Source of the DNA: Armatimonadota bacterium
GTDB taxonomy: Bacteria; Armatimonadota; Hebobacteria; GCA-020354555; CP070648
DNA length: 38,052 nucleotides
Assembly: GCA_020354555.1 (NCBI GenBank)
Contig: CP070648.1
Coordinates: forward strand, 1,534,603-1,572,654
Direction of reading: 5' to 3'
The position numbers were made by a program, and so were the translations under genes. Shown here in pieces: positions 7,839 through 30,174 of the stretch; position 1 is the stretch's first letter; every line of letters starts with the position of its first letter. The notes below the pieces were generated by a model. That model saw nothing but the letters and a program-made list of their open reading frames with translations, ran no database searches and had not been told where the DNA came from.

Positions 7839-8699
7839 CTACTCCCGCAGATGGTCGCGCAGCGATGCCGGTTCGACGCCGAATGTCTCGCGCATGGTCG
7901 TATCGTCGCAGGCGTTGTCCTCGAGCAGCATGACAAGCTGGTCGGGGGTGACCGGGAAGTCCGGCATGACGCGGCTGCCCAGTGACGCAGCGGCGCGCAT
8001 CACCGCCACGGGGATGTGAAACGTGGGCTTGCGGATGCCTTCCGCCTCTGCCACGAGAGCCACGAGTTGCTCGAAGGTCAGTCGATCCGGCCCCCCGAGT
8101 TCGTAGGCGTGGCCCGCCGTGTCCGGGCGTTCCAGCGCCCCGGCGAAGCACGTGACGACATCCTCGACCCACACCGGCTGGAGCAGGCTTTGCCCGTCGC
8201 CGATGATCGGGATCACCGGGCCGTGGTCGAGCAGGTCGCGCACCAGGGGCAGGAAGCTGTTCCCGGCGCCGAACATCACCGAGGGGCGGAAGACCGTCGC
8301 GGCCACGTCGGAGGCGCGCACCAGTTCCTCCGCCTCCCATTTCGTGCGGTGATAGCGGCTGGTTGCGTTCGGCCGTGCCCCGAGGGCGCTCATATGCAGG
8401 AGGCGGCCGACCCCTGCCCGCCCACAGGCCTCAATCACCGCGCGCGTGCCTTCAACGTGTACCTTCTCGAACGTTGCGTCGCCCTGCTCGCGGATGATGC
8501 CGACGAGGTGGATGGCCGCCGCGCATCCCCGCATCGCCGTGGCGACGGACGAGACGTCGGCGACGTCTCCCGGCACGACTTCCGCTCCGGCAAGGTCCGC
8601 CGCCGACCGCGCGAGAACGCGCACCTGCCCGCCGCCCGCGACGAGGCGGGCCACCAGATGACGACCCACAAACCCAGTACCGCCCGTAACAAGAATCAT
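7839..8699 (-). CDS. NAD(P)-binding epimerase-like protein (NDUFA9/NmrA type)
   Basis: The 286-residue product starts MILVTGGTGFVGRHL, the Rossmann dinucleotide-binding loop of atypical/extended short-chain dehydrogenases. It then has VVPGDVADVSSV, HLVGIIREQGDATFEKVHVEGTR split over the core, RYHRTKWEAEELV (Tyr and Lys of the YxxxK site) and FRPSVMFGAGNSFLP. This resembles complex I NDUFA9-like and NmrA-like proteins, which bind NADPH and act on quinone biogenesis, carotenoids or unknown sugars. The ATG at 8699 is preceded by GGAG at good spacing; the frame is open upstream to 9005 but lacks family similarity there. It is divergent from the photolyase gene, with 268 bases between the starts. 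Confidence 0.85.
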   Translation of the reverse strand: MILVTGGTGFVGRHLVARLVAGGGQVRVLARSAADLAGAEVVPGDVADVSSVATAMRGCAAAIHLVGIIREQGDATFEKVHVEGTRAVIEACGRAGVGRLLHMSALGARPNATSRYHRTKWEAEELVRASDVAATVFRPSVMFGAGNSFLPLVRDLLDHGPVIPIIGDGQSLLQPVWVEDVVTCFAGALERPDTAGHAYELGGPDRLTFEQLVALVAEAEGIRKPTFHIPVAVMRAAASLGSRVMPDFPVTPDQLVMLLEDNACDDTTMRETFGVEPASLRDHLRE

Positions 8700-8967
8700 C
8701 GTTTCTCCGACCTCGCGCATATCCGTTTTGGCGTCGTGCGCATGCGCTCCTGTCGCGCCCTGGTGGGCCGCTTCGACATCGCGGTCTGCCGCTGCAACTG
8801 CGTCCCGCATTGCCGCGAGAGCGCGCTCGTCGGCTGCACGGCAGGAAGCGTGCGCGTCGTGCTGAGCGAACAGGCGTTGCACTCGCTGCGACGAAACTCT
8901 ACAGCGCGCGGCGCTTCGGAGGCCCGTTTCGGACCGGCACCGATTCCCCAGTCGCCGCCGGACGTGC

Positions 8968-10446
8968 ATGGCCAACGTGCCTGAGCTTCGAGTCGAGAGA
9001 ATCAACTCCGCGCCCGTGCGCGCGGACGGCGATTTCGTCCTCTACTGGATGATCGCGTCCCGGCGCACGACATGCAACTTCGCGCTGCAGCGCGCCGTTG
9101 AATGGGCGAAAGAACTCGGCAAACCGCTTGTCGTTCTCGAGGCGCTGCGGGTCGGCTACAGATGGGCGAGCGACCGGCTCCACCGCTTCGTCCTCGACGG
9201 CATGTCCGACAACGCGCGGCGGTTCGAGAATCGCAGTGTGCTTTACCATCCCTACGCCGAGCCTGAGCCGGACGCGGGCAAGGGGCTGCTCGCGGCCTTG
9301 GCCGGTCGCGCCTGCGTCGTTGTAACCGACGATTTCCCGTGCTTCTTCCTTCCCCGCATGGTCGGGACGGCCGCCGGGCGACTGCTCGTCCGCGCGGAGC
9401 AAGTGGATTCGAACGGTCTGCTGCCGCTGCGCGCGGCGGACCGGGTCTTTACGACTGCGTATTCCTTCCGCCGGTTCCTCCACAAACACATCGCGCCGCA
9501 TCTCTCCGCGTTCCCGGCTGCCGATCCCCTCGCCGGAGTCAAGCTCCCGCGCCTCCGCGCTCTACCAGGGGACATCACGCGGCGCTGGCCAAAGGCCTCG
9601 CCTCAACTGCTCCGCGGTGACGCAACAGCTCTCGCGGCACTGCCGGTTGATCATGCGGTGGGCGTCACTGAGACAAGAGGTGGCTCCGCCGCGGCCGCGA
9701 TCACGCTCAAGCGCTTCGTGCGACAACGGCTCCCGGACTACGCGGACGCGCGCAACGAGCCGGAGCGGGAGGTCACCAGCGACCTGTCGCCATACCTGCA
9801 CTTCGGGCACATCTCGGCACATGAGGTCTTCGCGGCGGTGACGAAATGCGAGGGCTGGTCCCTCGACGACGTGGCGCCCAAGGCGACCGGAAGTCGCTCG
9901 GGCTGGTGGGGCATGAGCGAACCTGCCGAGGCGTTCCTCGATCAACTGGTGACGTGGCGCGAGCTGGGCTTCAATATGTGCTTCATGCAAAACGATTACG
10001 ACCGCTACGAGTCACTTCCGGACTGGGCCAAGAGGACGCTCGCGAAGCACGCCGGGGATGCGCGGCCCTACGTTTATGCACAGGAGCAGCTCGAGACCGG
10101 CCGCACCCACGACCCGCTGTGGAACGCGGCGCAGATGCAACTCGTGCGCGAGGGTCGGCTGCACAACTACCTACGCATGCTGTGGGGGAAGAAGATACTG
10201 GAGTGGTCGCCCACGCCGCAGGACGCCCTCAGGACGATGATCGAGCTCAACAACAAGTACGCGCTCGACGGTCGCGACCCGAACTCCTACAGTGGGATCC
10301 TCTGGTGCTTGGGGCGCTACGACCGCGCGTGGGGTCCCGAGCGGCCGATCTTCGGCACCGTGCGCTACATGAGTTCGCAGAACACCGCGCGGAAGGTGAG
10401 GGTGAAGGAGTACATTCGGAAGTATGTGCCGGGGGCCGATTCGTGA
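8968..10446 (+). CDS. phrB: class II CPD photolyase
   Basis: The 492-residue product is a class II deoxyribodipyrimidine photolyase, which uses FADH- and light to split cyclobutane pyrimidine dimers. The N-terminal Rossmann part has VLYWMIASRRTTCNFALQRA and GKPLVVLEALRVGYRWAS. The C-terminal FAD-binding half has LSPYLHFGHISAHEV, ELGFNMCFMQNDYDRYESLP, YLRMLWGKKILEWS, NKYALDGRDPNSYSGI and GPERPIFGTVRYMSS, all typical of the class II group. Length fits the family. The ribosome site before ATG 8968 is weak. Its presence suggests exposure to sunlight. It is divergent from the epimerase-like gene and convergent with the HMA protein gene. Confidence 0.95.
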   Translation: MANVPELRVERINSAPVRADGDFVLYWMIASRRTTCNFALQRAVEWAKELGKPLVVLEALRVGYRWASDRLHRFVLDGMSDNARRFENRSVLYHPYAEPEPDAGKGLLAALAGRACVVVTDDFPCFFLPRMVGTAAGRLLVRAEQVDSNGLLPLRAADRVFTTAYSFRRFLHKHIAPHLSAFPAADPLAGVKLPRLRALPGDITRRWPKASPQLLRGDATALAALPVDHAVGVTETRGGSAAAAITLKRFVRQRLPDYADARNEPEREVTSDLSPYLHFGHISAHEVFAAVTKCEGWSLDDVAPKATGSRSGWWGMSEPAEAFLDQLVTWRELGFNMCFMQNDYDRYESLPDWAKRTLAKHAGDARPYVYAQEQLETGRTHDPLWNAAQMQLVREGRLHNYLRMLWGKKILEWSPTPQDALRTMIELNNKYALDGRDPNSYSGILWCLGRYDRAWGPERPIFGTVRYMSSQNTARKVRVKEYIRKYVPGADS

Positions 10447-10493
10447 GCCGCGCTCAATGGCGACCCACGAGCGTTCGGCCGAGTTCGCCGCGC

Positions 10494-10700
10494 CTACTTC
10501 GCCTCGTGGCCGAGTTCGCGAATGGTCTGGATGACCTGGACTTCGTTGACGAGGGCCGAGTCGAGGTCGACGCAGACCTCCTTCGCCTCGATGTCCACCT
10601 GAACGCCCATGATGCCGGGCAGGCGCCGCAGCGCAGTTGAGATGGTCCGGACGCAGGCTTCCCCCTTGATCGTCGGCACGTCAAATATCCTGGTGCTCAT
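10494..10700 (-). CDS. HMA-fold protein with only one of the two metal cysteines
   Basis: This 68-residue protein has the beta-alpha-beta-beta-alpha-beta pattern of heavy-metal-associated domains (CopZ/MerP-like): FDVPTIKGEACVRTISTAL, LPGIMGVQVDIEAKEVCVDL, VIQTIRELGHEAK. In the family the loop reads GMxCxxC. Here it reads IKGEAC, with Gly13 in place of the first Cys and only Cys16 kept; a third Cys43 sits in a strand. Metal binding by a single-domain chaperone is thus doubtful, unless dimers share cysteines. The ATG at 10700 is set by GGAGGTTGCGC directly upstream. No copper ATPase or CsoR regulator is nearby. Confidence 0.8.
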   Translation of the reverse strand: MSTRIFDVPTIKGEACVRTISTALRRLPGIMGVQVDIEAKEVCVDLDSALVNEVQVIQTIRELGHEAK

Positions 10701-10803
10701 GCGCAACCTCCACGACCGCGTGTAAGTTACCACGCCGACCGTGGGAGGTCAAGGGCTGCCAAGCGCGCCCGACATGCCGCTCGCGCACCACCCGCGAGCG
10801 TGA

Positions 10804-11820
10804 CTACAGCTTCTCCCCCGGCCAGCCCGCCATGATCCGTGCGCCGAGTTCGGGAAATGCCGTCGGGATCCGCTCCAGCGCCCCGCGCGCGGCCTCGAGG
10901 TGCCCGATTCCCGCCACGGTACAGTTGACGCCGGCGACGATGTTCGCCGCCGCGTTCGCCTTCGCCGGCTCGCGGCACTGGAAGTAGTTCCACAGGAAAC
11001 CTGCGGAGAACGAGTCGCCGCAGCCCGTGGTGTCCACGACTTGCTCGACCGCCAGCGCCGGATTGGCGACCCAGAAAATGCCGTCCGCGCGCCGATAGAC
11101 CAGCACCGACCCCAGCGGCCCGAGGGTGATGAGAACGATCGGCGCGCCGGCTTCGCCATGGCCTCCCGCGCGGCGCTTCGCCGAGCAGGCCTCGACGATC
11201 TCCGCGCCCGCCTGCACGAAATCCTGCTGCTCGCGCAGCTTGCGCCCGACCGTCATCTCGCACTCGAACTCATTCATCTGCGCCGCGTCCACGCGGCTCA
11301 GCCATTCCTGCCACCCCTCGAACGGTACCTGGGACTTCTTGCCCTCGGCGTCCCAGTGGGCGACTTTGCTGTGCACGTCGAGATGGAGGAAGCCGCGCGC
11401 ATTCTCCCGCAGCGCCGCGAACGTTTCGAGGTCGAGTTCGCTCCCGTTGATGAAGTTGACGAGCACGGCGTCGGAATCGAACGCCCCTGTCAACCGCTCC
11501 GTGGTCAGCGGGCGCATCGGGTGCAGTACCGTCTCGTCTCGCCACGTCGGGCTCGTGTACACCAGCTTCGCCGCGGTCAGCTTGCCGGGCACGCGCTGCA
11601 CGTCGTCCGTTGTGACGAGCGGATAGCGGGCGAGCAGTTCCACGACCTCGTCCCACCGATCCTCGGCGACGTTCGCGATCGGGCAGATGCTGGTGTCATC
11701 GCTGACGATGGACGACAACGCCGCCATGTTGTAGGTGATGCCGCCGAAGGATTCGCGGCGCGCGCCGTCGGCGGTGGTAATCTCGTCGTGAACGATGGCC
11801 CCGATGACCGATATCCTCAT
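10804..11820 (-). CDS. PfkB-family carbohydrate kinase
   Basis: The 338-residue product begins MRISVIGAIVHDEITTADG, followed by the substrate-cap motif ESFGGITYNMAAL. It ends with the PfkB signature VVDTTGCGDSFSAGFLWNY, which includes the GCGD anion hole and the catalytic Asp. Such enzymes phosphorylate sugars or nucleosides with ATP; the exact substrate is not clear. The ATG at 11820 is chosen for its GAGGAG ribosome site and family N terminus; the frame is open upstream to 11979 without similarity. It lies 76 bases downstream of the mannose-6-phosphate isomerase on the same strand. This suggests co-transcription for sugar phosphate metabolism. Confidence 0.9.
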   Translation of the reverse strand: MRISVIGAIVHDEITTADGARRESFGGITYNMAALSSIVSDDTSICPIANVAEDRWDEVVELLARYPLVTTDDVQRVPGKLTAAKLVYTSPTWRDETVLHPMRPLTTERLTGAFDSDAVLVNFINGSELDLETFAALRENARGFLHLDVHSKVAHWDAEGKKSQVPFEGWQEWLSRVDAAQMNEFECEMTVGRKLREQQDFVQAGAEIVEACSAKRRAGGHGEAGAPIVLITLGPLGSVLVYRRADGIFWVANPALAVEQVVDTTGCGDSFSAGFLWNYFQCREPAKANAAANIVAGVNCTVAGIGHLEAARGALERIPTAFPELGARIMAGWPGEKL

Positions 11821-11896
11821 GCCTCGATTCTCCTCGCGGCGTCCGATGCAGAGATGCCCATGATCGGTGATGCGAGCGGACCTGGGATCGCTTGCG

Positions 11897-13108
11897 TCAT
11901 TGCCCGCCGGCAAGTCGCGACGTGTGGCTCTTGCCGAGCATCGGGTCTTCGCACGTCCGGCCGCCGCCCGGCGTGGCAAGCGCAGGTGGCTCGGCGGTGA
12001 TCACCTGCAGGGGCACAGCGTGCTGTGCCCCTGCACTGCCGACTGCCCGGTATTTGTGCTCGCGCACGGAATTGGGGACGAAGAACGTATCCCCCGCGCG
12101 CAGGTCCATCGCGCCCCGCGCCCAGGTCAGCCTCCCGCGCCCGCCGATGACTGCGCCCGCGTAGAATCGCTCGTTGGCGCACTCCAGTTCACCGATCACG
12201 CGCAGCCGTCGCGCCGCGAAGAACGGCGTGTCATCGTATGAGATGAGTTGATCCACCGCCCCACTTGCGCCGACGGCGATCTCGCGCGGCGTGAGCCGCG
12301 CACGTCTCAGCGTCTCCTGCTCCGTGCGCCCGGTGAAGTCGAATACTTCCATCGCGCGATCCCACCCCAGCCCCATGTGGCAGATCTCCTCCGGAATCTC
12401 TACCTCCACCACCTTGCGCTCGGTGTGAATCACGAGATCCGACGGCTGCTGCACTTCTATCATGAACACGCCGCTGCCGATGGCATGGGGAGTCCTGCCG
12501 GTCACGAGGTAGGCGTCGCCCGGCTTCACGGCGATGCGGTTGAGGCACGCCACCTGACCATCGAGATCCTCCTCGTCAACCATGCGGCGGAAATCGGCGG
12601 GATCGACTCCGGGTCGGAAATCGAGCAGGATGTACGGCTCGGCTCCGTTGATGACGCGCGTGTTGACGATGATCCACGCTTCAGTCTTGCCGACGGGAGA
12701 ATCGAAGTAACGCTGCGCGAGTTCGTCGTCGGGATGCGCCTGGATGGGCAGGCGCACCGCCGAGCACAGGAATTTCGCCAGGACTCGCGTGGTCGCTCCG
12801 AAAGCCGCCAGGTGCGCTCCGCCCAGGATCTCCTCGGGGAACAGCTCGACCAGAAGCGAGAACGGGATTTCGGTGCCGCGGATGACGCTCAACCCCTCCA
12901 AGGGCGGCTGGCCGTCGCGCGGCGGGTTGTCCGCTCGCGTCATGGAGGCGACCCAGTCCTCGGGGTAGTACGAGTCCCGCGGGTCGGGCTGGCCGCGGAG
13001 TTCGCGGAACAGCTTGCCCCCCGTGTACACGCGCCATACCTCGTTGCGCTCGAACGCGATGGGGGCGCGCGCGAGCGCCGCGAGTTGGTCTAATCTGGGT
13101 GACGCCAT
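11897..13108 (-). CDS. manA: class I mannose-6-phosphate isomerase
   Basis: This 403-residue protein is a type I phosphomannose isomerase, which interconverts mannose 6-phosphate and fructose 6-phosphate with zinc. Visible features: NEVWRVYTGGKLFRELRG, LPIQAHPDDELAQRYFDSPV (metal Gln and His), GKTEAWIIV (metal Glu), PGDAYLVTGRTPHAIG (metal His), IEVQQPSDLVIHTE, and a C-terminal cupin with RAGDTFFVPNSVREHKYRA. The ATG at 13108 fits the family start; the open frame extends to 13309 without similarity. The last 45 or so residues (after EHKYRA) are encoded by a dispersed palindromic repeat and sequence beyond it, and look acquired. The gene is followed by a PfkB kinase and is divergent from the FNT-receiver fusion gene. 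Confidence 0.88.
   Translation of the reverse strand: MASPRLDQLAALARAPIAFERNEVWRVYTGGKLFRELRGQPDPRDSYYPEDWVASMTRADNPPRDGQPPLEGLSVIRGTEIPFSLLVELFPEEILGGAHLAAFGATTRVLAKFLCSAVRLPIQAHPDDELAQRYFDSPVGKTEAWIIVNTRVINGAEPYILLDFRPGVDPADFRRMVDEEDLDGQVACLNRIAVKPGDAYLVTGRTPHAIGSGVFMIEVQQPSDLVIHTERKVVEVEIPEEICHMGLGWDRAMEVFDFTGRTEQETLRRARLTPREIAVGASGAVDQLISYDDTPFFAARRLRVIGELECANERFYAGAVIGGRGRLTWARGAMDLRAGDTFFVPNSVREHKYRAVGSAGAQHAVPLQVITAEPPALATPGGGRTCEDPMLGKSHTSRLAGGQ
12006..12035. repeat. dispersed palindromic repeat, copy 2, inside manA frame
   Basis: The arms are TGCAGGGGCACAGC and GCTGTGCCCCTGCA, a perfect 14-bp inverted repeat around a central GT. It lies within the 3' part of the mannose-6-phosphate isomerase reading frame, where it is translated as AGAQHAVPLQ. 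The core matches copies at 2880 and 19282. Confidence 0.85.
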
Positions 13109-13338
13109 GTTTCCCACGCCTCCGGCATCAGGCTCGATTCGGCTGACGCCCAAACCTCTCCCCAACGTGATTTCCACGACGCAGGGCCGCGTACCTGTTG
13201 ACAGCGCAGGGACTGCGGCCGGCCGCTGGCCCGCGCGTGCGCGCGCCGCAGCCGCTGCGCTCGATCGCGGCGGGAAGGGAGAAGGATACAGGGCAGCGAA
13301 ATCTCGCATTTGTTTCCGACGTCGTGGAGGATCTCCAC

Positions 13339-14607
13339 ATGGCTGACGATCAGAAGCAAGGGTTGAGGATCGGCCTCGACGCCCTGATGCCTGCAGAAAT
13401 GGCGATCAAGGCCGAGAATATCGGCGTGCGCAAGGCCGAGTTGCCCTTCGACAAGCTTCTGCTGCTCGCCATCCTGGCCGGTGCATTCATCGGCCTCGGC
13501 GCGGAGTTCTGCACCGTAGTCGTCACCGGCACGTCTGACCATATCGGTTACGGGTTGACGAAGCTGGTCGGGGGCATCGTCTTCTGCCTCGGACTGATTC
13601 TGGTGGTGGTGGCGGGGGCGGAGTTGTTCGCCGGCAACGCCCTCATCATTATGGCCTACGCCAGCCGCAAGGTCGCGATCGCGCTCCTGCTGCGCAACTG
13701 GGGCATCGTCTACGTCGGCAATTTCGTCGGTGCTATTCTCACCGCGTATTTCCTGTTCCTGAGCAAGCAGTACACCTTCGACGGCGGCGCGGTCGGCGCT
13801 ACCGCGCTCGACATCGCCAACAGGAAATGCGGGCTGGACTTCTGGCCCGCGCTGTTCTTGGGGGCGTACGGCAATGCTTTGGTGTGTCTCGCGATGTGGC
13901 TGTGCTTCAGCTCGCGCACGATGACCGACCGCATCCTGGCCATCGTCTTCCCGATTACCGCGTTCGTTGCCTCCGGCTTCGAGCACTGCGTCGCCAACAT
14001 GTATCTCATCCCGATGGGGTTGTTCGTCAAGTCCGACGCCGTCGCTGCCGCACTCGCCAGGTCCGTCGCCGATCTGACGTGGGCCAACTTCCTCGTGCGC
14101 AATCTGATCCCGGTCACTATCGGCAACATCATCGGCGGCGGGGTGATGGCGGGGGCGATCTACTGGTGGGTCTACCTGCGCCCGTCGGTGAAGGTGGCCG
14201 CACCCGCAGTCACGCCGAAAGCGACCACCGAAGGCTTGCCCCTCGGCGCGCGCAGCGTCGTCGTGATTGACGACGATCCGGACTTCTGCAATGTGGTCTC
14301 GGCGCAGCTCGAACAGCAGGGCTACGATGTTCGCTGTGCGCTCTCGGCGCAGGAGGGCCGCCGCGCGATCCGCGCCCACCGACCGGATCTGGTGCTGCTC
14401 GACATCCGGATGGAGACGCAGTCCGCCGGCCTTGAGCTGGCCCACGATCTGCGCGAGGAAACGGACACGCGCGACCTGCCCATCGTCCTCGTCAGCGGCT
14501 TCGAGCCGCCGCCCGAGCACGGCGCCGACCGCTTCCTCAAGAAGCCGGTGCGCTTCTCGCTCCTGAGCAAGACCATTGATGAGGTGATGAAGGAGCGCGC
14601 CGAGTAG
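13339..14607 (+). CDS. formate/nitrite-family channel fused to a response-regulator receiver domain
   Basis: The first 285 residues or so are a complete FNT channel. After a soluble start (IGLDALMPAEMAIKAENIG) come six membrane segments, the first family signature as VVAGAELFAGN (90-100), the second as GAYGNALVCLA (175-185), and the pore histidine His216 in ASGFEHCVANMYLIP. FNT proteins conduct formate, nitrite, hydrosulfide or lactate. After a short linker (286-305) there is a full receiver domain: acidic DDD 311-313, phospho-acceptor Asp355 in LLDIRM, Ser386 in LVSGFE, and Lys402 before Pro. All catalytic positions are present, so phosphorylation is plausible. There is no DNA-binding output domain, so the channel itself may be the output. 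The ATG is set by GGAGGATCTCCAC. No histidine kinase is nearby. It is divergent from manA. Confidence 0.93.
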   Translation: MADDQKQGLRIGLDALMPAEMAIKAENIGVRKAELPFDKLLLLAILAGAFIGLGAEFCTVVVTGTSDHIGYGLTKLVGGIVFCLGLILVVVAGAELFAGNALIIMAYASRKVAIALLLRNWGIVYVGNFVGAILTAYFLFLSKQYTFDGGAVGATALDIANRKCGLDFWPALFLGAYGNALVCLAMWLCFSSRTMTDRILAIVFPITAFVASGFEHCVANMYLIPMGLFVKSDAVAAALARSVADLTWANFLVRNLIPVTIGNIIGGGVMAGAIYWWVYLRPSVKVAAPAVTPKATTEGLPLGARSVVVIDDDPDFCNVVSAQLEQQGYDVRCALSAQEGRRAIRAHRPDLVLLDIRMETQSAGLELAHDLREETDTRDLPIVLVSGFEPPPEHGADRFLKKPVRFSLLSKTIDEVMKERAE

Positions 14608-14752
14608 CGGCAGGCGGCAGGCCGCCCGCGCGGCAAGTCGAGTCACTGGTCCGCCGATCGCCTCCTGCTGGGGCAGGTGCGTTTCTTCACGCCTCGAAAT
14701 ACTCCCCCAGCGCCTTGGGGCGCGCAAGCGACCACTCACGGAGGCTGGACCG

Positions 14753-16045
14753 ATGAAACGCGCACCGGTGATCCTCGTTGTCGTGCTCTCCCTTGGTCTG
14801 GTTGCCCCCTGCGCATGCGCGCAGGACGTTGACCTCAGCGACGCCTGGGCGAAGGATAAGGAGGGCGTGAAGTTCCTCCACCTCGCCGGCACCCCGTACG
14901 AAATGGGCGTCCAGCAGGGGACTATCCTGCGCGACGAAATCCGCGAGATGATGTCCTCGCTCTGGTTCGGGCCGATCAAGCTGCTCATTGGGGACAAGAT
15001 GCCCCTCGCCCGCGACCTGGTGAGCCGCATCGCAGCGATGTGCCCGGACTACCTGCTCGAGGAAATGCGGGGCATTGCCGACGGCGCCGGCGTCCCGCAA
15101 GAGGATGTCATCGTCGCCACTCTCATCGCCGACCAGGTGGAGCACCTCGCGCACACCGGGCGGCTGGGCGACGAGACCGCCGCCGCGCCGACGCTGCTCG
15201 GTGCGCCGCTCGGGTGCTCCAACTTCGCCTGCTTCGGCCGCGCGACGAAAACGGGCGAACTCTACCACGGCGTCAACTTCGACTGGAAGAAGGAACTCGG
15301 CCTGCAGAAGCACTACGTCGTCATCGCGCGCGCGCCGGACCGCGGTGCGCCATTTGTCACCATCGGCTGGGCGGGAACGCTCTACACCACCGCGACGATG
15401 AACGCACACAGGATCTCCACCGGCTTCGTCGGCTTCAGCACCGTCAACACGCCGGACTGCGGCTTCCCCATGGGCCTTGTGCACCGCCGCATCGCCCAGG
15501 AGGCGAAGACTCTCGATGACGCCATCGGCATCATCATCTCCGTGCCGCGCACGCCGTACGGAGGCATCAACTACGTGGTCGCCGATGGCAAGGTGCCTGA
15601 CGCCGTCGCGGTGGAGACCGACGCCAAGCACGCCTCGGTGTGGAGCGCCAACGACCCGCGTGAGAACGACGTCTTCTACGCCATCCCCGTCATGGATACG
15701 GTCGTGCGCAGCGACGAAGCGATGGACGCACGGGTACGGGATGCCCAGACGTGCACTAAGGGCGACCCGACCAAGCCCGGCCTCGAGGCGCCGTGGGGCC
15801 ACGAGTCCTACGAGCACCGCTACAAAGGGCTGGCGGTTGGGATTCTGCACGACTTCGGCCGCGTGGATGACGGCGTGGCGCTCCGGCTCGTCCGCGAGGC
15901 GGCGATGGCGGGCGTCAACATGCACAGCGTACTGTGGTGCCCGACTCGGCTCGAATTCCACCTCGCAGTGGCCCGAGGCCAAGTGGATGCCGCGAAAGGC
16001 ACGTACGTGCATTTCACGTGGGATGAGCTCTTCCCCGGAAAGTGA
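14753..16045 (+). CDS. secreted C45-family (acyltransferase-like) Ntn hydrolase
   Basis: The 430-residue product has a signal peptide (MKRAPVILVVVLSLGLVAPC, cleaved near ACAQ). It belongs to the peptidase C45/acyl-CoA:6-aminopenicillanate acyltransferase-like family of N-terminal-nucleophile hydrolases. Evidence: FLHLAGTPYEMGVQQG near residues 41-56, a self-cleavage site LLGAPLGCSNFACFGR with Gly154-Cys155, and LYHGVNFDWKKE. In this family autoproteolysis before the Cys frees it as the nucleophile for amide hydrolysis or acyl transfer. Substrate is unknown. GGAGGCTGGACCG precedes the ATG. The next gene starts nine bases after the stop, so the two are probably co-expressed exported enzymes. 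Confidence 0.88.
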   Translation: MKRAPVILVVVLSLGLVAPCACAQDVDLSDAWAKDKEGVKFLHLAGTPYEMGVQQGTILRDEIREMMSSLWFGPIKLLIGDKMPLARDLVSRIAAMCPDYLLEEMRGIADGAGVPQEDVIVATLIADQVEHLAHTGRLGDETAAAPTLLGAPLGCSNFACFGRATKTGELYHGVNFDWKKELGLQKHYVVIARAPDRGAPFVTIGWAGTLYTTATMNAHRISTGFVGFSTVNTPDCGFPMGLVHRRIAQEAKTLDDAIGIIISVPRTPYGGINYVVADGKVPDAVAVETDAKHASVWSANDPRENDVFYAIPVMDTVVRSDEAMDARVRDAQTCTKGDPTKPGLEAPWGHESYEHRYKGLAVGILHDFGRVDDGVALRLVREAAMAGVNMHSVLWCPTRLEFHLAVARGQVDAAKGTYVHFTWDELFPGK

Positions 16046-24695: not shown

Positions 24696-25091
24696 ACGGG
24701 CCTGGCGTCGGGTTGAGACGCGCCTCTGGAAGCCTTGCGGGCGTGGTGGCTTGGGCTGCCGCGCCCGTGGCTCTCCGGTTTCCCCTTCCTCGACGGTTGC
24801 CTGCCGTCTGCGTGGCGCTATATCCGGCCGGTGCTGAATGCCGGCCCGTCACTGGCCTTTGCGCATCCCCGAGGTGACACCCGCGCCCCGTCGTCGGCCC
24901 GGTATACGGATTAGCATCCGACCCAAAAACCCCAGGCGTGGGCAGGAATTGTGCGATTTGCGACACAATACCATAGGGGAATCAGGCCCGAGCGCCGCGC
25001 ATATGTTGTCGTGGCGAGACAGCGCTGGGCTGTCCGGCGGCTGCCAGCTTGAGCAGGGTGCCGAAAAGAGGAGGGATTGGAGGAGGTCGTT
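24696..25091. other. intergenic region before the MerR-type gene
   Basis: About 395 bases separate the Spy-like gene and the MerR-type gene. A dyad at 24948-24969 is the only ordered element I see. I found no riboswitch-like or tRNA-like structure by eye. Confidence 0.5.
24948..24969. promoter_or_regulatory. candidate operator dyad
   Basis: ATTGTG and CACAAT form a 6-bp inverted repeat spaced by ten bases in an AT-rich patch about 120 bases before the MerR-type start. MerR proteins bind such dyads between promoter boxes. No clear -35/-10 pair frames it, so the role is uncertain. Confidence 0.3.
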
Positions 25092-25742
25092 ATGGCTAAC
25101 CGCGCTGAAGGAAAGAAAAAGGGCCTGACACCGATTGACGTCAACGACCTGATGCACGGTCTTCAGTTGGGCATTGGGCAAGCGGCCACACTGTGCGGCG
25201 TGAGCGTCCGCCAATTGTCTTATTGGACCGACAAGGGCATCATCCAGCCCGTGGATGAGGACCGGAGTCGCACCTACGATTACGCGGCCGTCGAGAAGGT
25301 GTGCCTCATCAAGCAAAGCCTCGATCAAGGCTACAGCCTGGAGGGCGCGGTGCAGGAAGCCGACGCCTTTCTCAAGCGCCGCGATGAGGAGCAGCACCGC
25401 GTCGAGCAACTCTCCGAAGCCGATCTGGAGCAGCTCATTCTCCAGCGCGCCAACCAGCTCCAGCAGTTGGCCGAGCGCATTCGCAGGGAAATCCGCACTT
25501 ATCGGGTAAGCGGCGATCTGGGCAAAGTCGCCGGGTCCCTCAGCGGCGTCGAGCGTCTTATCGCATTCTTCGAGGCCAACCCGTACACCGTGAGCACGGC
25601 ACGCCAGATCGCCTTGCGCCTGGGTCGTGAAGTAACGGAGGTCGAGCACGAGCTCGACCTCTTGGAGCAGAAGAAGTTCATACAGAAGATCAGCTATCCC
25701 GGATCAGATGTCTATCGCTACATCCCGCAGCGCCGGCACTAG
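25092..25742 (+). CDS. MerR-family regulator with C-terminal winged-helix-like domain
   Basis: This 216-residue protein has an N-terminal MerR DNA-binding domain (LGIGQAATLCGVSVRQLSYW, TDKGIIQPVDEDRSRTYDYA) ending with the dimer helix AVEKVCLIKQSLDQGYSLEG. A long charged linker helix follows (LEQLILQRANQLQQLAERIR). The C-terminal part (about 160-216: FFEANPYTVSTARQIALRLG, VTEVEHELDLLEQKKFIQ) looks like a second winged-helix module. No metal-binding cysteines of classic MerR type are present. The ATG at 25092 is set by GGAGGTCGTT. It precedes the KaiC-like gene by about 126 bases on the same strand and may control it. Confidence 0.88.
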   Translation: MANRAEGKKKGLTPIDVNDLMHGLQLGIGQAATLCGVSVRQLSYWTDKGIIQPVDEDRSRTYDYAAVEKVCLIKQSLDQGYSLEGAVQEADAFLKRRDEEQHRVEQLSEADLEQLILQRANQLQQLAERIRREIRTYRVSGDLGKVAGSLSGVERLIAFFEANPYTVSTARQIALRLGREVTEVEHELDLLEQKKFIQKISYPGSDVYRYIPQRRH

Positions 25743-25868
25743 CCGAGGGAAAAGGGCGACCTGCGGAGCACTGCGGATGCGGCGGCTTGCGCGGGACGAG
25801 GATGCCGCCGCCGACTTCTCGACGACCCCGCGCGAGCACGTTCGGGATAAGCTAAAGAGGTGGAACCT

Positions 25869-27215
25869 ATGGCACGAATCCTGACTGGTGTCGAAGGTCT
25901 CGACGAGATCACGCGCGGCGGCTTCATTGAGGGCGACTCGGTGCTGGTCGCGGGCGCCCCGGGCACGGGCAAGACGAGCCTCGGCATGCAATTCATCTAT
26001 AACGGCATTACCAAGTACGACGAGCCCGGGTTCTTCATCACGTTCGAGGAGTTCCCTCAGCAGATCTACCGTGACGCGCTGAGCTTCGGCTGGGATTTCC
26101 GGCGGCTTGAGGAGGAGGACAAGCTGAAGGTAATGTTCACCTCGCCCGAGCTCCTGCAGCAAGACATTCAGCGCCAGGAAGGCCTGATTTCCCAGATGAT
26201 CCGAGAGGTCAACGCTCGCCGCATCGTCGTGGACAGCATTACCCACCTGCGCCGGCTCACGGACGACCCCGGCGAGTTCCGCGAGATGATCTACGGCGTC
26301 ATCAACGCCCTCAAGCGCGAGGGCCTCACCGCCATGCTCATCCGCGAGTTGGTCGAGTCGGATGTCCCCGGATCCGGCAGCGAGGAGTACATCGCCGATT
26401 CCGTCATCTACCTCACGCGCGAGAACGTCAACGGACAGCGCATGCGCTGTCTCGAGGTCATCAAGAGCCGCGGCACCCCTCATCTGCCCGGCCGCTGCCT
26501 GTTCTTCATCCACAGCGACGGCGTGCGCGTCGTGTCCCCCTACCGCAGCCCCTTGTTCCGCTTCGAGCAGGCCGCCTCCACTGGACACCCCGAACTCGAC
26601 AACTTACTCGGCGGCGGTATTCCCGACGGCGCGTTCTACCTCTTCGAGGTCAGCTCCGACATCCACCAGGCCGTGTTCCAGATCAACTTCCTGCGCGAGG
26701 GCCTCGACGCAGGTGACGTGTATGCCGTGGTGAATCGCGACGCATCCTTGCCCCACACGTTGACCGACGCCGCCGGTCACTTCGGCATGGCCGACGAGCT
26801 TCAGGCCGCATACGAGTCCCATCGCGTAGCCGTTCTCGCGCCCCAATCCGGCATCGCCGCATCGCTCAGGGAAATACAGGCGGAAGGGGAGACCCGCGCC
26901 AAGACTCGCGTCTTCGTCGACCTCACGCGTATGCTCGCGGGCATGGGCGGCGACGAGTTCCTACAGCAGCTCAACACCTTCACCGACTCCCTGCGTGAGT
27001 CCGGCGCCGTCGCCATGGCCATCCTGAACCGCGACGTTATCGCTCCCCAATCAGTCGAGCGGATTCGCTCGCTCGCCGACGGGATTATCCGTATGTGGCG
27101 CGAAGGGGGCTACAACTACCTCCAGGTGCTCAAGACCGTCAACTCCGTCCGCACGCCCGTCGTCGCCTTCCTCGAGATCGCCGAGCCGCCGTTCATCGAG
27201 CTGCCGCGGTACTGA
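25869..27215 (+). CDS. two-domain KaiC-like RecA ATPase, second domain without P-loop
   Basis: The first half of the 448-residue product is a KaiC/RadA-type ATPase: Walker A GAPGTGKTS (29-37), PGFFITFEEFPQQIYRDAL with the acidic pair, and Walker B RRIVVDSIT. The second half keeps the KaiC start (TGHPELDNLLGGGIPDGAFY) but its P-loop position reads EVSSDIHQAVF and lacks the GxGKT sequence; KTRVFVDLTRML resembles a Walker B strand. It could be a KaiC-like signalling scaffold with one working nucleotide site. KaiC-like proteins of this kind in non-cyanobacteria serve signalling or motility roles. The start is ATG 25869 after GAGGTGGAACCT. Confidence 0.9.
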   Translation: MARILTGVEGLDEITRGGFIEGDSVLVAGAPGTGKTSLGMQFIYNGITKYDEPGFFITFEEFPQQIYRDALSFGWDFRRLEEEDKLKVMFTSPELLQQDIQRQEGLISQMIREVNARRIVVDSITHLRRLTDDPGEFREMIYGVINALKREGLTAMLIRELVESDVPGSGSEEYIADSVIYLTRENVNGQRMRCLEVIKSRGTPHLPGRCLFFIHSDGVRVVSPYRSPLFRFEQAASTGHPELDNLLGGGIPDGAFYLFEVSSDIHQAVFQINFLREGLDAGDVYAVVNRDASLPHTLTDAAGHFGMADELQAAYESHRVAVLAPQSGIAASLREIQAEGETRAKTRVFVDLTRMLAGMGGDEFLQQLNTFTDSLRESGAVAMAILNRDVIAPQSVERIRSLADGIIRMWREGGYNYLQVLKTVNSVRTPVVAFLEIAEPPFIELPRY

Positions 27216-27398: not shown

Positions 27399-27965
27399 CT
27401 ACGGTCGGGGTCTGGCGATCAAGGTCAGGAACTCGTTCCGCGTCGCCACGGAGTTGTGGAAACTCCCGAGCACCGACGACGTCGTCATCACCGAGTTCTG
27501 CTTCTCTACCCCGCGCATCATCATGCACAGATGCCGCGCTTCGATGATGACGCCGACGCCGGACGCATTGATCGAGTCCATCACGGCGCGGGCGATCTGT
27601 TCCGTGAGCCGTTCCTGAATCTGCAGCCGTCGGGCATACATGTCCACCAATCGTGCCAGCTTGCTGATGCCGAAGACCTTGCCCTGCGGAATGTACCCGA
27701 TGTGGCAGCGGCCGAAGAACGGCAGCATGTGGTGCTCGCACATGCTGTACATCTCGATGTCCCGCGCGATGATCATGTTGTTCGTTTCCTGCGTGAAGAT
27801 CGCGTCGTTGATCAACGCTTTCGGGTCGGCGTCGTACCCCGAGGTCAGGAAGCTGAGCGCGGCGGCGATGCGCGTGGGCGTCTTCATCAGACCCTCGCGC
27901 TCCGGATCCTCGCCGATCTCGACCAGCAGCTCTCTGACGAGTCCTCGCACTTTCTCAGCGTCCAT
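27399..27965 (-). CDS. folE: GTP cyclohydrolase I
   Basis: The 188-residue product is a GTP cyclohydrolase I, which makes dihydroneopterin triphosphate from GTP, the first step of folate and pterin synthesis. It shows [20 protein letters not shown] (zinc Cys and His), [50 protein letters not shown] (second zinc Cys) and [12 protein letters not shown]. Length is usual for the zinc-type FolE IA. The start ATG overlaps the last codons of folK by 11 bases, so the two are coupled. It is the last gene of the minus-strand pterin cluster and converges with the KaiC-like gene. Confidence 0.97.
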
Positions 27966-28476
27966 GTTCGATGTCCTTTCTGATGATTTCCGTGTACTCC
28001 AGCAGCGCCTGCATATCGTGGTCGGCGAACGCGTCGGCAGCGTCGCAGACGCGCCGGCCGGAATTCGGCAGCACCAGTTCCGGCGCGAGCTCGCACAGCG
28101 GAACGGCGAGAAATGGGCGGCGCTCGATGTCCGGGTCCGGGATCATCAGGTCGTCCGCTTCCACCGTGAGGCCGTCATACACCAGCACGTCCAGATCTAT
28201 CGTGCGCGGTGCATACTTGTCATCTCCACGGATCCGCCCCAGCTGGCCCTCGACGCGCCGCAGCACCGAGTGCTTGAGTTCGACGGGTGCGATGTCCGTC
28301 TCGACTTCGACGACGCAGTTGAGGAAATCCGGCTGCTCCGGCCGGTCGAGCGCCGCGGTGCGGTAGACCGTCGAAACGCCTATGACGCGCACGTCGCGCG
28401 CCAGCAGTCGCAGCGCTCGCCGCACGTTCTGCTCCGGGCTGATGTTCGACCCGACGCCGATGAAGACGCGCGCCAT
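27955..28476 (-). CDS. folK: HPPK, 2-amino-4-hydroxy-6-hydroxymethyldihydropteridine diphosphokinase
   Basis: The 173-residue product transfers diphosphate from ATP to 6-hydroxymethyl-dihydropterin. It shows [40 protein letters not shown], the HPPK signature [12 protein letters not shown], and [16 protein letters not shown]. The ATG at 28476 fits the family start. An upstream in-frame ATG at 28560 overlaps the folB stop (TGATGA) and would add 28 residues with no family match, but it could serve for coupling. The gene overlaps folE by 11 bases. Confidence 0.95.
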
Positions 28477-28559
28477 CCGCGTTACCCGTAGGCGCCGCGT
28501 CCCGCGGCGATTCGCGCGGGCCCGCCCAAGCTGCGCGTGCTCGTCTCCGGCATTTGTCA

Positions 28560-28943
28560 TCAAGCCCGGTCGCGCGTGATCTCGACCCCGACGCTGCGCG
28601 CGAAGCGCAGGGCGGACGGTTTCTCCACCGTGACCTGCGCCCGCCGTACAGCGGGATGATGCTCCAGGCACATCTCCGCGACGCGCTCCGCCAGCCGTTC
28701 GACCAGGTAGTACTGCGAGTTCTCCACCATTGCGAGAATGCGCTTCTTGAGGGAACGATAGTCGACCGCGTCCTCGAACTGGTCGCTCCGGCCCGGCTTG
28801 CGCAGATCCGCGGACAGCACGAGGTTGATCACCACGTCCTGCTTCTCGCGCCGCTCGTCTTCATTGATCCCGAGAATGCAGCGCGCCCGGAGATCTCTGA
28901 TCAGTATGCGATCCATGGGTGAGCTATCGCGCTGGAGTGGCAT
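28560..28943 (-). CDS. folB: dihydroneopterin aldolase
   Basis: The product is 127 residues (118 if the second ATG at 28916 is used). FolB converts dihydroneopterin to 6-hydroxymethyl-dihydropterin plus glycolaldehyde. Visible features: RILIRDLRARCILGINEDER, DAVDYRSLKKRI, YYLVERLAERVAE and VTVEKPSALRFARSVGVEIT with the active-site Lys-Pro. The upstream ATG at 28943 has a GGGGAT ribosome site six bases away; the internal one lacks it but fits the family N terminus better. It lies 15 bases after the SDR gene and before folK. Confidence 0.93.
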   Translation of the reverse strand: MPLQRDSSPMDRILIRDLRARCILGINEDERREKQDVVINLVLSADLRKPGRSDQFEDAVDYRSLKKRILAMVENSQYYLVERLAERVAEMCLEHHPAVRRAQVTVEKPSALRFARSVGVEITRDRA

Positions 28944-28958
28944 CTATCCCCGTGCTCC

Positions 28959-29714
28959 TCAACCAAGTGGCGACCCGCTGCCGGGCTCGCCCAGGTGCGC
29001 GCCGCCGTCCACGTATATCACCTGACCGGTCACGAAGCGGGACGTGACGAGAAACAGAATGGCGTCGGCGATATCCTGCGCGTCGCCGTGACGTCTGAGC
29101 GGAACGGTCTGCGCTCGGTCAACGAGGTACGCCTCGTCTTCGCCCGGCGGCGGCAGGATCAATCCCGGCGCGACGGCGTTGACCGTGATGTCCGGCGCGA
29201 ATTCGAGAGCGGTCATGCGCGTCAGCATCCCGAGCATGTGCTTGCTCAGCGCGTACGCCGCGTGCGAGGTGGCGTGCGCGCCGAGGCTCGCGTCGAGGAG
29301 ATTCACGATCTTGCCCTTGCCGACGCGCCGTGCGAACTCCCGGCTCAGGACCAACGGCGCCCATGCATTCACGCGGACGTTTGCGACTACCGCGTCAAAA
29401 GCCACAGTGTCGAGCGTGTCCGGCGGGAAGATGGAGGCGTTGTTTACCAGAATATCCAGGCTGCCGGCGGCCTCGCGCGCACGGGCGACGAGGGCCTCGC
29501 TGCCCTCGGCCTTCGCGAAGTCGGCCGCCATCGCCCACGCCCTGACCCCGCGCGATTCGGCTTCAGCCACGACCTCGGCCGCCGCCTCGTCCGCGCCGAG
29601 ATGATGCACGACGACATGTACTCCCGCCTCGGCCAGCGCGAGCGCCGTCGCGCGCCCGATTCGCCGCTCCGCGCCGGTGATGAGAGCCGTCTTGCCTGCA
29701 ATTGGTTCAGTCAT
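28959..29714 (-). CDS. pteridine-reductase-type short-chain dehydrogenase
   Basis: The 251-residue SDR has the nucleotide loop TGAERRIG (13-20), which fits the pteridine-reductase variant TGx3RxG that selects NADPH, plus DILVNNASIFPPDT. The catalytic residues are Asp141, Tyr154 and Lys158. The usual SDR Ser is replaced by Asp at the PTR1 spacing (Asp-13-Tyr-4-Lys, as Asp181/Tyr194/Lys198 in Leishmania PTR1). It is therefore likely a FolM/PTR1-like reductase of dihydropterins, possibly dihydrofolate. The ATG at 29714 follows GGTGGG. Location beside folB, folK and folE supports this. It may replace classical DHFR in this organism; no folA is in the window. Confidence 0.9.
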   Translation of the reverse strand: MTEPIAGKTALITGAERRIGRATALALAEAGVHVVVHHLGADEAAAEVVAEAESRGVRAWAMAADFAKAEGSEALVARAREAAGSLDILVNNASIFPPDTLDTVAFDAVVANVRVNAWAPLVLSREFARRVGKGKIVNLLDASLGAHATSHAAYALSKHMLGMLTRMTALEFAPDITVNAVAPGLILPPPGEDEAYLVDRAQTVPLRRHGDAQDIADAILFLVTSRFVTGQVIYVDGGAHLGEPGSGSPLG

Positions 29715-29853
29715 CCCACCCGCCCGTTCTGGGGTACGGCACGGCCTGCCGCCAAGCCTCGCCGCCACTCCGGCTCAAACGGCTCAGGGGCCGTGCCTCC
29801 GCAGAGTCGCCGCCGATTCGCATCCCGTCCGAGCGCTGGCACGACCGGCGGTG

Positions 29854-30174
29854 TTACGCCAGCAGATCCACCTTCGCCGCGCAGATGAAATCGTTCTGCG
29901 ACAGCCCGCCGATCTTGTGCGTCGAGAACTCTAGTCGCACCCTATCATACGAAACATGGATGTCGGGGTGGTGATCCTGCTTCTGCGCCATCCGTGCGAC
30001 CTCGTTGACGAACTCCATCGCCTCCGCGAAATCGCTGAAGCGGAACTCGCGCTCGATCGCCCCTTCCCGCACGGTCCACTTCGGCACCTCCGCGGCGAGT
30101 CTCTCCGCTTCCTGCCGCGACAGCGGCTTCGTATCCGCAGAGATCGGTTCGGCGTCCTGCTCGGCCAGTGTCAT
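29854..30174 (-). CDS. pterin-4a-carbinolamine dehydratase (PCD/DCoH)
   Basis: The 106-residue product has the PCD core AQKQDHHPDIHVSYDRVRLE followed by FSTHKIGGLSQNDF, with the His-His-Pro, Tyr, His and Asp spacing of the family. PCD dehydrates 4a-hydroxy-tetrahydropterins during cofactor recycling. THK replaces the more usual THD. It lies 37 bases after the AIF-like gene and upstream of the pteridine-reductase gene, all on the minus strand, so it probably belongs to the pterin operon. No aromatic amino acid hydroxylase is in the window. Confidence 0.92.
   Translation of the reverse strand: MTLAEQDAEPISADTKPLSRQEAERLAAEVPKWTVREGAIEREFRFSDFAEAMEFVNEVARMAQKQDHHPDIHVSYDRVRLEFSTHKIGGLSQNDFICAAKVDLLA

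Follow-up and report, generated by a model that had tools for sequence, protein, structure and literature searches.

The window, that is, the whole 38,052-nt stretch of DNA that was analysed, carries on its plus strand a 422-residue FNT-REC fusion gene, delimited by its open frame and Pfam domains (13339..14607; all features of this gene given below lie on the same strand). The frame runs from the ATG at 13339 to the TAG ending at 14607 without an internal stop, and a GGAGG ribosome-binding site, read from the sequence, lies 8 nt 5' of the ATG (13326..13330). The first-pass annotation had announced both a single continuous frame and a ribosome site before its start, and both are borne out. Pfam assigns residues 20-277 (13396..14169) to Form_Nir_trans (PF01226; E 6.8e-76, 255.2 bits against a curated cut-off of 34.6), the match spanning the whole profile (1-240/240), and residues 307-413 to Response_reg (PF00072; E 1.3e-16, 61.2 bits against a curated cut-off of 30.2). 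These are the only two domains that Pfam gives, and no kinase domain was found in the chain. The channel domain and the receiver (REC) domain (residues 304-422, 14248..14604) are separated by a linker of 22 residues (282-303, 14182..14247), rich in Ala, Pro, Thr and Lys, which is predicted to be disordered (AF2 pLDDT below 50 at residues 285-296). Coding phase is kept through the linker: third-position GC is 0.88 in the FNT segment, 0.82 in the linker and 0.88 in the REC segment, with a single codon phase over the join. Nothing therefore points to a frameshift near 14220, where the annotation had imagined that a stop or a frameshift might undo the fusion; nor is a stop seen there. A weak terminator-like stem-loop 3' of the stop codon (14664..14677) is a pattern match only, in a region that has three such matches where 1.3 are expected. 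The gene looks monocistronic, and an Rfam search of the window returned no match. The encoded protein is the sole FNT in its 4.88 Mb single-contig genome.

Among solved structures, the FNT part matches Vibrio FocA (3kly, E 3e-71) and E. coli FocA (3kcu, E 1e-62). Alignment to these structures places a FocA-like cytoplasmic N-terminal amphipathic helix region (LDALMPAEMAIKAENIGVRKA) at 13375..13437, and FocA Lys26 is conserved as Lys32. In the full-length AF2 model TM2 and TM5 of the FNT part are each interrupted, and a linker of low confidence connects the channel to the receiver; the broken helices, 71-92/96-108 and 195-211/219-232, are mostly modelled at pLDDT >80. The modelled channel part thus shows the aquaporin-like fold, with its two interrupted helices, that is expected of an FNT member. 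Its score against the FocA equivalog TIGR04060 is 257.3 bits, under the cut-off of 290.1, so that the protein is FocA-like and is not classed as FocA.

The pore histidine, His216 (codon 13984..13986; FocA His209), was located by alignment in a column that is His in 88/88 aligned sequences. Also kept relative to E. coli FocA, besides Lys32 and Glu215, are Phe82, Leu86, Lys163, Asn179, Phe209, Asn220 and Asn263. By the same means the essential FocA Thr91, in the Omega loop, was found to correspond to Ala98 (13630..13632). Thr occupies this column in 87 of the 88 aligned FNTs; across the 143 FNT sequences gathered, it is Thr in 138, Ala in four and a gap in one. The other three Ala carriers are one half of a tandem FNT (L148) and the divergent second copies L118 and L120, and the idea that Ala98 is unique to the window protein was dropped. 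In FocA, Thr91 makes a hydrogen bond to His209 and is needed for bidirectional formate movement (PMC9380403; PMC12559229). Loss of the pore threonine is a rare variation within the FNT family and does not exclude the protein from it. The complete FNT channel of the first-pass annotation accordingly stands as far as the full-length Pfam match, His216 and most pore residues are concerned, but not at the position of FocA Thr91. Because Ala98 replaces the pore threonine, the window protein may, to judge from its sequence, be an altered FNT or a non-conducting, sensor-like one; it may be biased, slow, or a sensor resembling Ks-Amt5.

The best solved relatives of the second part are response-regulator receivers. 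The receiver alignment identifies the acidic metal-binding cluster Asp311-Asp312-Asp313 (14269..14277), the switch Ser/Thr residue Ser386 (14494..14496) and the aromatic switch residue Phe399 (14533-14535), while the predicted phospho-acceptor Asp355 (14401..14403) and Lys402 of the K-P motif (14542..14544) fill invariant columns of alignment A2. His216, Asp311-313, Asp355, Ser386 and Lys402 all stand where they had been placed on first reading. Modelled alone, the receiver reaches a pLDDT of 94.8 and lacks alpha-4; the rest of it superposes on the DivK, PhoB and RR468 receivers with TM-scores of about 0.87. Helix alpha-4 is part of a common output face of receivers. With alpha-4 missing from the model, the (beta-alpha)5 fold is not complete, and on the strength of its PF00072 profile match and catalytic residues the domain is classed as a receiver whose alpha-4 region is shortened. 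The earlier description of a complete receiver domain is thus right for all the phosphorylation residues and wrong for alpha-4, as far as the AF2 model goes.

How widespread such fusions are was surveyed in public genomes. At the 74 loci of a first homologue set, the FNT homologues stop near residue 283, with the exception of one that carries PilZ. Scans with PF01226 found FNT in 38 of the 291 genomes of the window's phylum, and in samples from the phyla of a Nitrospirae locus (95 of 396 genomes), a Planctomycetota locus (100 of 392) and a Chloroflexi locus (78 of 400). G286 of the window's phylum and G295, the Candidatus Zipacnadia genome with locus L027, agree in contig number, coordinates, size and score of their FNT and are probably a single genome, which would make the window's phylum that of Ca. 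Zipacnadia, Armatimonadota in NCBI naming. Fusions were sought in the extensions of the longer open frames among the matches listed, and the fusion counts are lower bounds. The FNT-REC order occurs in at least two genomes, the window genome and G1092 of the Chloroflexota sample. The reverse order, REC-FNT, occurs in at least three genomes from two phyla: G270 and G265, which belong to two genera of one family within the window's phylum, and G698 of the Planctomycetota sample (loci L116/L124, L122/L123 and L136/L174). At least four genomes of the Nitrospirota sample (G291, G679, G533 and G635) have an FNT with a C-terminal PilZ domain (L025:1847-3169, L128, L130 and L131). The PilZ motifs RxxxR and D/NxSxxG are readable in three of these four, G679 having S for D/N. 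FNT-PilZ is a parallel signal-input fusion, in which PilZ likely provides a c-di-GMP input. Searches of the order and class around G1092 and of the class of G698 covered just one or two genomes each and carry no information on spread. A plasmid search gave FNT-length matches only, no record reaching 80% query cover.

Several candidates were rejected. An apparent match to residues 1-420 in Clostridia (L038) is an FNT that ends at a stop, with no receiver after it, and in GC-rich genomes the length of many open frames at FNT loci comes from non-coding extension upstream. Neither the single frame with a tandem FNT-FNT in G858 (L148) nor the G828 frame in which FNT precedes additional membrane segments and a trypsin-like region (L149) is a signalling fusion.

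The G1092 protein (P0003) is 51% identical to the window protein (P0001) over residues 13-413, which covers both domains (E 4e-140). It bears on two doubts raised at the outset. One was that the fusion might exist in this assembly alone, and a homologue in another phylum speaks against that; the other was that homologues might end at residue 290, and most indeed end near 283, but a full-length FNT-REC exists in Chloroflexota. A sequencing or assembly artefact that joined two genes would be conceivable given that a single assembly of the species was examined, but the single-contig genome, the continuous codon phase over the join and the identical architecture in G1092 make it extremely unlikely. 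Very improbable, too, is an accidental or decaying fusion without functional coupling in the window genome. Such an origin would suit the unusual combination of Ala98 with a missing alpha-4, and no closely related genome with the fusion gene was found; against it stand the full-length homologue in another phylum, an intact frame with coding bias throughout, a phosphorylation site that lacks no residue and a linker that is clean and of low complexity.

The surroundings of the related fusions were then compared. In G1092, FNT-REC (L185 10510-11757) is part of an apparent operon with three histidine kinases on the minus strand: an sCache-HAMP-HisKA-HATPase kinase (12995-14971) and a REC-HATPase kinase (11830-12987) precede it, and a REC-HisKA-HATPase kinase (9344-10486) lies 24 nt after it. 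HdrC comes next (8635-9219, minus strand), followed downstream by HdrB-like and HdrA-like frames that were assigned by reading the sequence. Further along lie a nucleotidyltransferase/HEPN-like pair that is unrelated, two iron-sulfur-type frames, one small and one larger, and then formate dehydrogenase alpha (L185:1-1218), split by one stop immediately before HSATVAGLA, the usual selenocysteine site. In G270, REC-FNT (L124 7361-8671) comes immediately after two kinase genes on its own strand, encoding a REC-PAS-kinase (8737-10269) and an sCache-HAMP-kinase (10273-12330). After REC-FNT in G698 (L174 2991-4337) come genes for a receiver protein and a GAF-PAS-kinase, and an NtrC-like gene. Histidine-kinase neighbours are thus present in G1092, G270 and G698, and no kinase adjoins the REC-FNT gene of G265. 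The FNT-PilZ genes of G533 and G635 adjoin a Cache-type chemoreceptor, and that of G635 also adjoins a molybdopterin oxidoreductase resembling formate dehydrogenase.

As a separate observation, an FNT in G282 (L127:3451-4716) has a C-terminal extension of about 70 residues that belongs to no Pfam family and closely resembles the C-terminus of the receiver protein (L174:4431-5102) encoded beside REC-FNT in G698. The G282 gene has a kinase and a LuxR-type regulator upstream of it and FDH-N alpha downstream.

FNT and REC were aligned separately for phylogeny, a mixed alignment (A1) having placed receivers onto FNT. The receiver tree puts both C-terminal receivers among single-domain receivers (95/87), that of G1092 grouping with paralogues of its own genome (100/98). 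The N-terminal receivers group with receivers of REC-kinase proteins, and that of G698 has as its sister the receiver encoded by the following gene (100/99). AU tests reject a single clade of all fused receivers (p 0.0003) and, on the FNT tree, of all receiver-carrying FNTs (p 2e-48). The corresponding values for the two C-terminal receivers and for the three N-terminal receivers are both 0.013, and since the tested groups were defined after the fusions had been seen, p-values near 0.01 are to be read loosely. A clade of the two FNT-RECs is not rejected on the FNT tree (p 0.22). A single origin of the receiver-FNT fusions is rejected, the trees opposing a single clade for the fused channels as well as for the fused receivers, and fusion therefore arose repeatedly. 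The trees and AU tests together separate N-terminal from C-terminal fusions; the receiver, but not the channel, speaks against a common origin of the two FNT-RECs. There were probably four receiver fusions and one PilZ fusion.

No histidine kinase gene was found in the 38,052-nt window. Orphan regulators are common, and the absence of a kinase nearby does not exclude a response-regulator role. The most similar receiver in the window genome (46% identity over residues 303-387) is encoded between a kinase with a [FeFe]-hydrogenase-like domain and a REC-kinase, in a cluster (G000:C1 ~3,068,200-3,072,300; L125:3212-7337) that comes after HydF-like and NfnAB-like frames. This hydrogenase-like kinase cluster offers a lead to the partner kinase, not evidence of pairing. 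The window genome has one formate-dehydrogenase-like enzyme, which scores under the equivalog cut-off, and four glycyl-radical enzymes. The three of these that were scored are under every pflB-type cut-off, which leaves a PFL partner for the channel unsupported. The genome evidence favours formate as the candidate substrate over nitrite or sulfide.

Other genes of the window were also recorded. An apparent folate/pterin cluster occupies 27399-30174 (GTP cyclohydrolase I, FolK-like, FolB-like, a short-chain reductase and a pterin-carbinolamine-dehydratase-like frame), and a MerR-type regulator followed by a 451-residue KaiC-type ATPase lies at 25077-27215. Two long frames, 719-2926 and 8968-10446, have no Pfam match at 1e-5, the latter resembling a photolyase by eye.

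In FocA, gating takes place at the cytoplasmic face; translocation requires PflB as well as the N-terminal helix (PMC11841067), and the short C-terminal helix is mobile and essential for translocation (PMC12559229). A C-terminal receiver sits where these gating parts lie, and phosphorylation could remodel its surface and with it the conformation of the vestibule. I give slightly better than an even chance to the proposal that FNT-REC is an anion channel with a built-in two-component input, the flux of which is tuned by kinase phosphorylation. The membrane would hold a pore assembly of five FNT subunits, with five receivers hanging on flexible linkers at the cytoplasmic side. A histidine kinase would phosphorylate Asp355, the residues for this reaction being present, and the changed surface of the phosphorylated receiver would alter its contact with the vestibule, the N-terminal helix or the short C-terminal helix. 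The altered contact would in turn open, close or bias the flux of formate or of a small anion like it. The outcome would be a fast control that bypasses transcription, matched in the relatives to formate-dehydrogenase/heterodisulfide-reductase and hydrogenase-type redox metabolism.

Recurrence beside kinases and formate-dehydrogenase genes in the relatives fits a kinase-controlled channel. Ala98, the lack of a kinase in the window, the lost alpha-4 and the lack of a close relative with the gene count against the mechanism, and for the general claim the window protein carries less weight than G1092, G270 and G698. The same adjacency of kinases to both REC-FNT and FNT-REC genes would also suit a formate sensor ("transceptor"), in which anion binding to the FNT part would shift the rate of receiver (de)phosphorylation and thereby report to the kinase network. 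The replacement of Thr91 by Ala98 points the same way, and a precedent exists in Ks-Amt5, in which the transporter domain binds NH4+ without translocating it (PMC5764959). I nevertheless regard a sensor as unlikely: the pore residues Phe82, Leu86, Lys163, Asn179, Phe209, His216, Asn220 and Asn263 are all kept, every other REC-fused FNT, that of G1092 included, retains the Omega-loop Thr, a receiver ordinarily terminates the signalling chain and does not send, whereas Ks-Amt5 has a kinase, and the window protein is the only FNT of its genome. Quite improbable is a role of the receiver as a docking or phosphate-sink module that tethers kinases or formate enzymes and drains or buffers phosphate while conductance stays unchanged. 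The predicted disordered linker would suit tethering, and C-terminal receivers fall in a subfamily of otherwise single-domain receivers, one of them within the histidine-kinase cluster of the window genome; fusion at either end of FNT and the parallel PilZ fusion fit an allosteric input better.

Taken together, the best reading is that FNT channels repeatedly took up cytoplasmic signal-input domains, by which a kinase could tune the flux of an anion, probably formate, without transcription. The broader proposition, that FNT channels are general, direct and non-transcriptional two-component outputs that gate formate to suit formate-dehydrogenase/heterodisulfide-reductase redox state, the PilZ fusions forming a parallel c-di-GMP variant, is put forward tentatively, as falling a little short of an even chance.

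Several known systems resemble the window protein in part. It shares with FocA of E. coli and Vibrio cholerae the whole length of the FNT domain, the N-terminal helix, the pore His and most pore residues, and differs in the added receiver, in Ala98 for Thr91 and in having no pflB neighbour; in FocA, PflB and the N-terminal helix of the channel do the gating (PMC11841067). Ks-Amt5 likewise combines a membrane domain of a transport family and a two-component domain in one chain, but it is an Amt, not an FNT, carries a kinase instead of a receiver and has been shown to be a non-translocating sensor (PMC5764959). REC-FNT (G265, G270 and G698) and FNT-PilZ proteins also join FNT to a cytoplasmic signal-input domain, which is an N-terminal receiver or PilZ, and they have separate origins. 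Most described receivers switch DNA-binding, enzymatic or protein-binding outputs. Canonical response regulators have such partner domains and a receiver with all the catalytic residues (DivK, PhoB and RR468 match in fold); in the window protein the partner is a membrane channel and alpha-4 is missing. A 2017 survey of FNT proteins makes no mention of a fusion, a receiver or a response regulator (PMC5525234). The architecture had been flagged as one not known to have been described, and indeed no description of an FNT-REC or FNT-PilZ protein was found in a search confined to open, as distinct from subscription, literature. Both domains are standard and transporter-signalling fusions are known; a channel that has its own receiver and recurs beside kinases is new to me.

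A receiver borne by a channel would let a sensor kinase alter membrane flux in seconds. That one channel family took up REC and PilZ independently and repeatedly suggests that control of this kind has been selected for. The fusions also provide concrete proteins for testing the cytoplasmic gating of FNT channels, a question that bears on FocA too.
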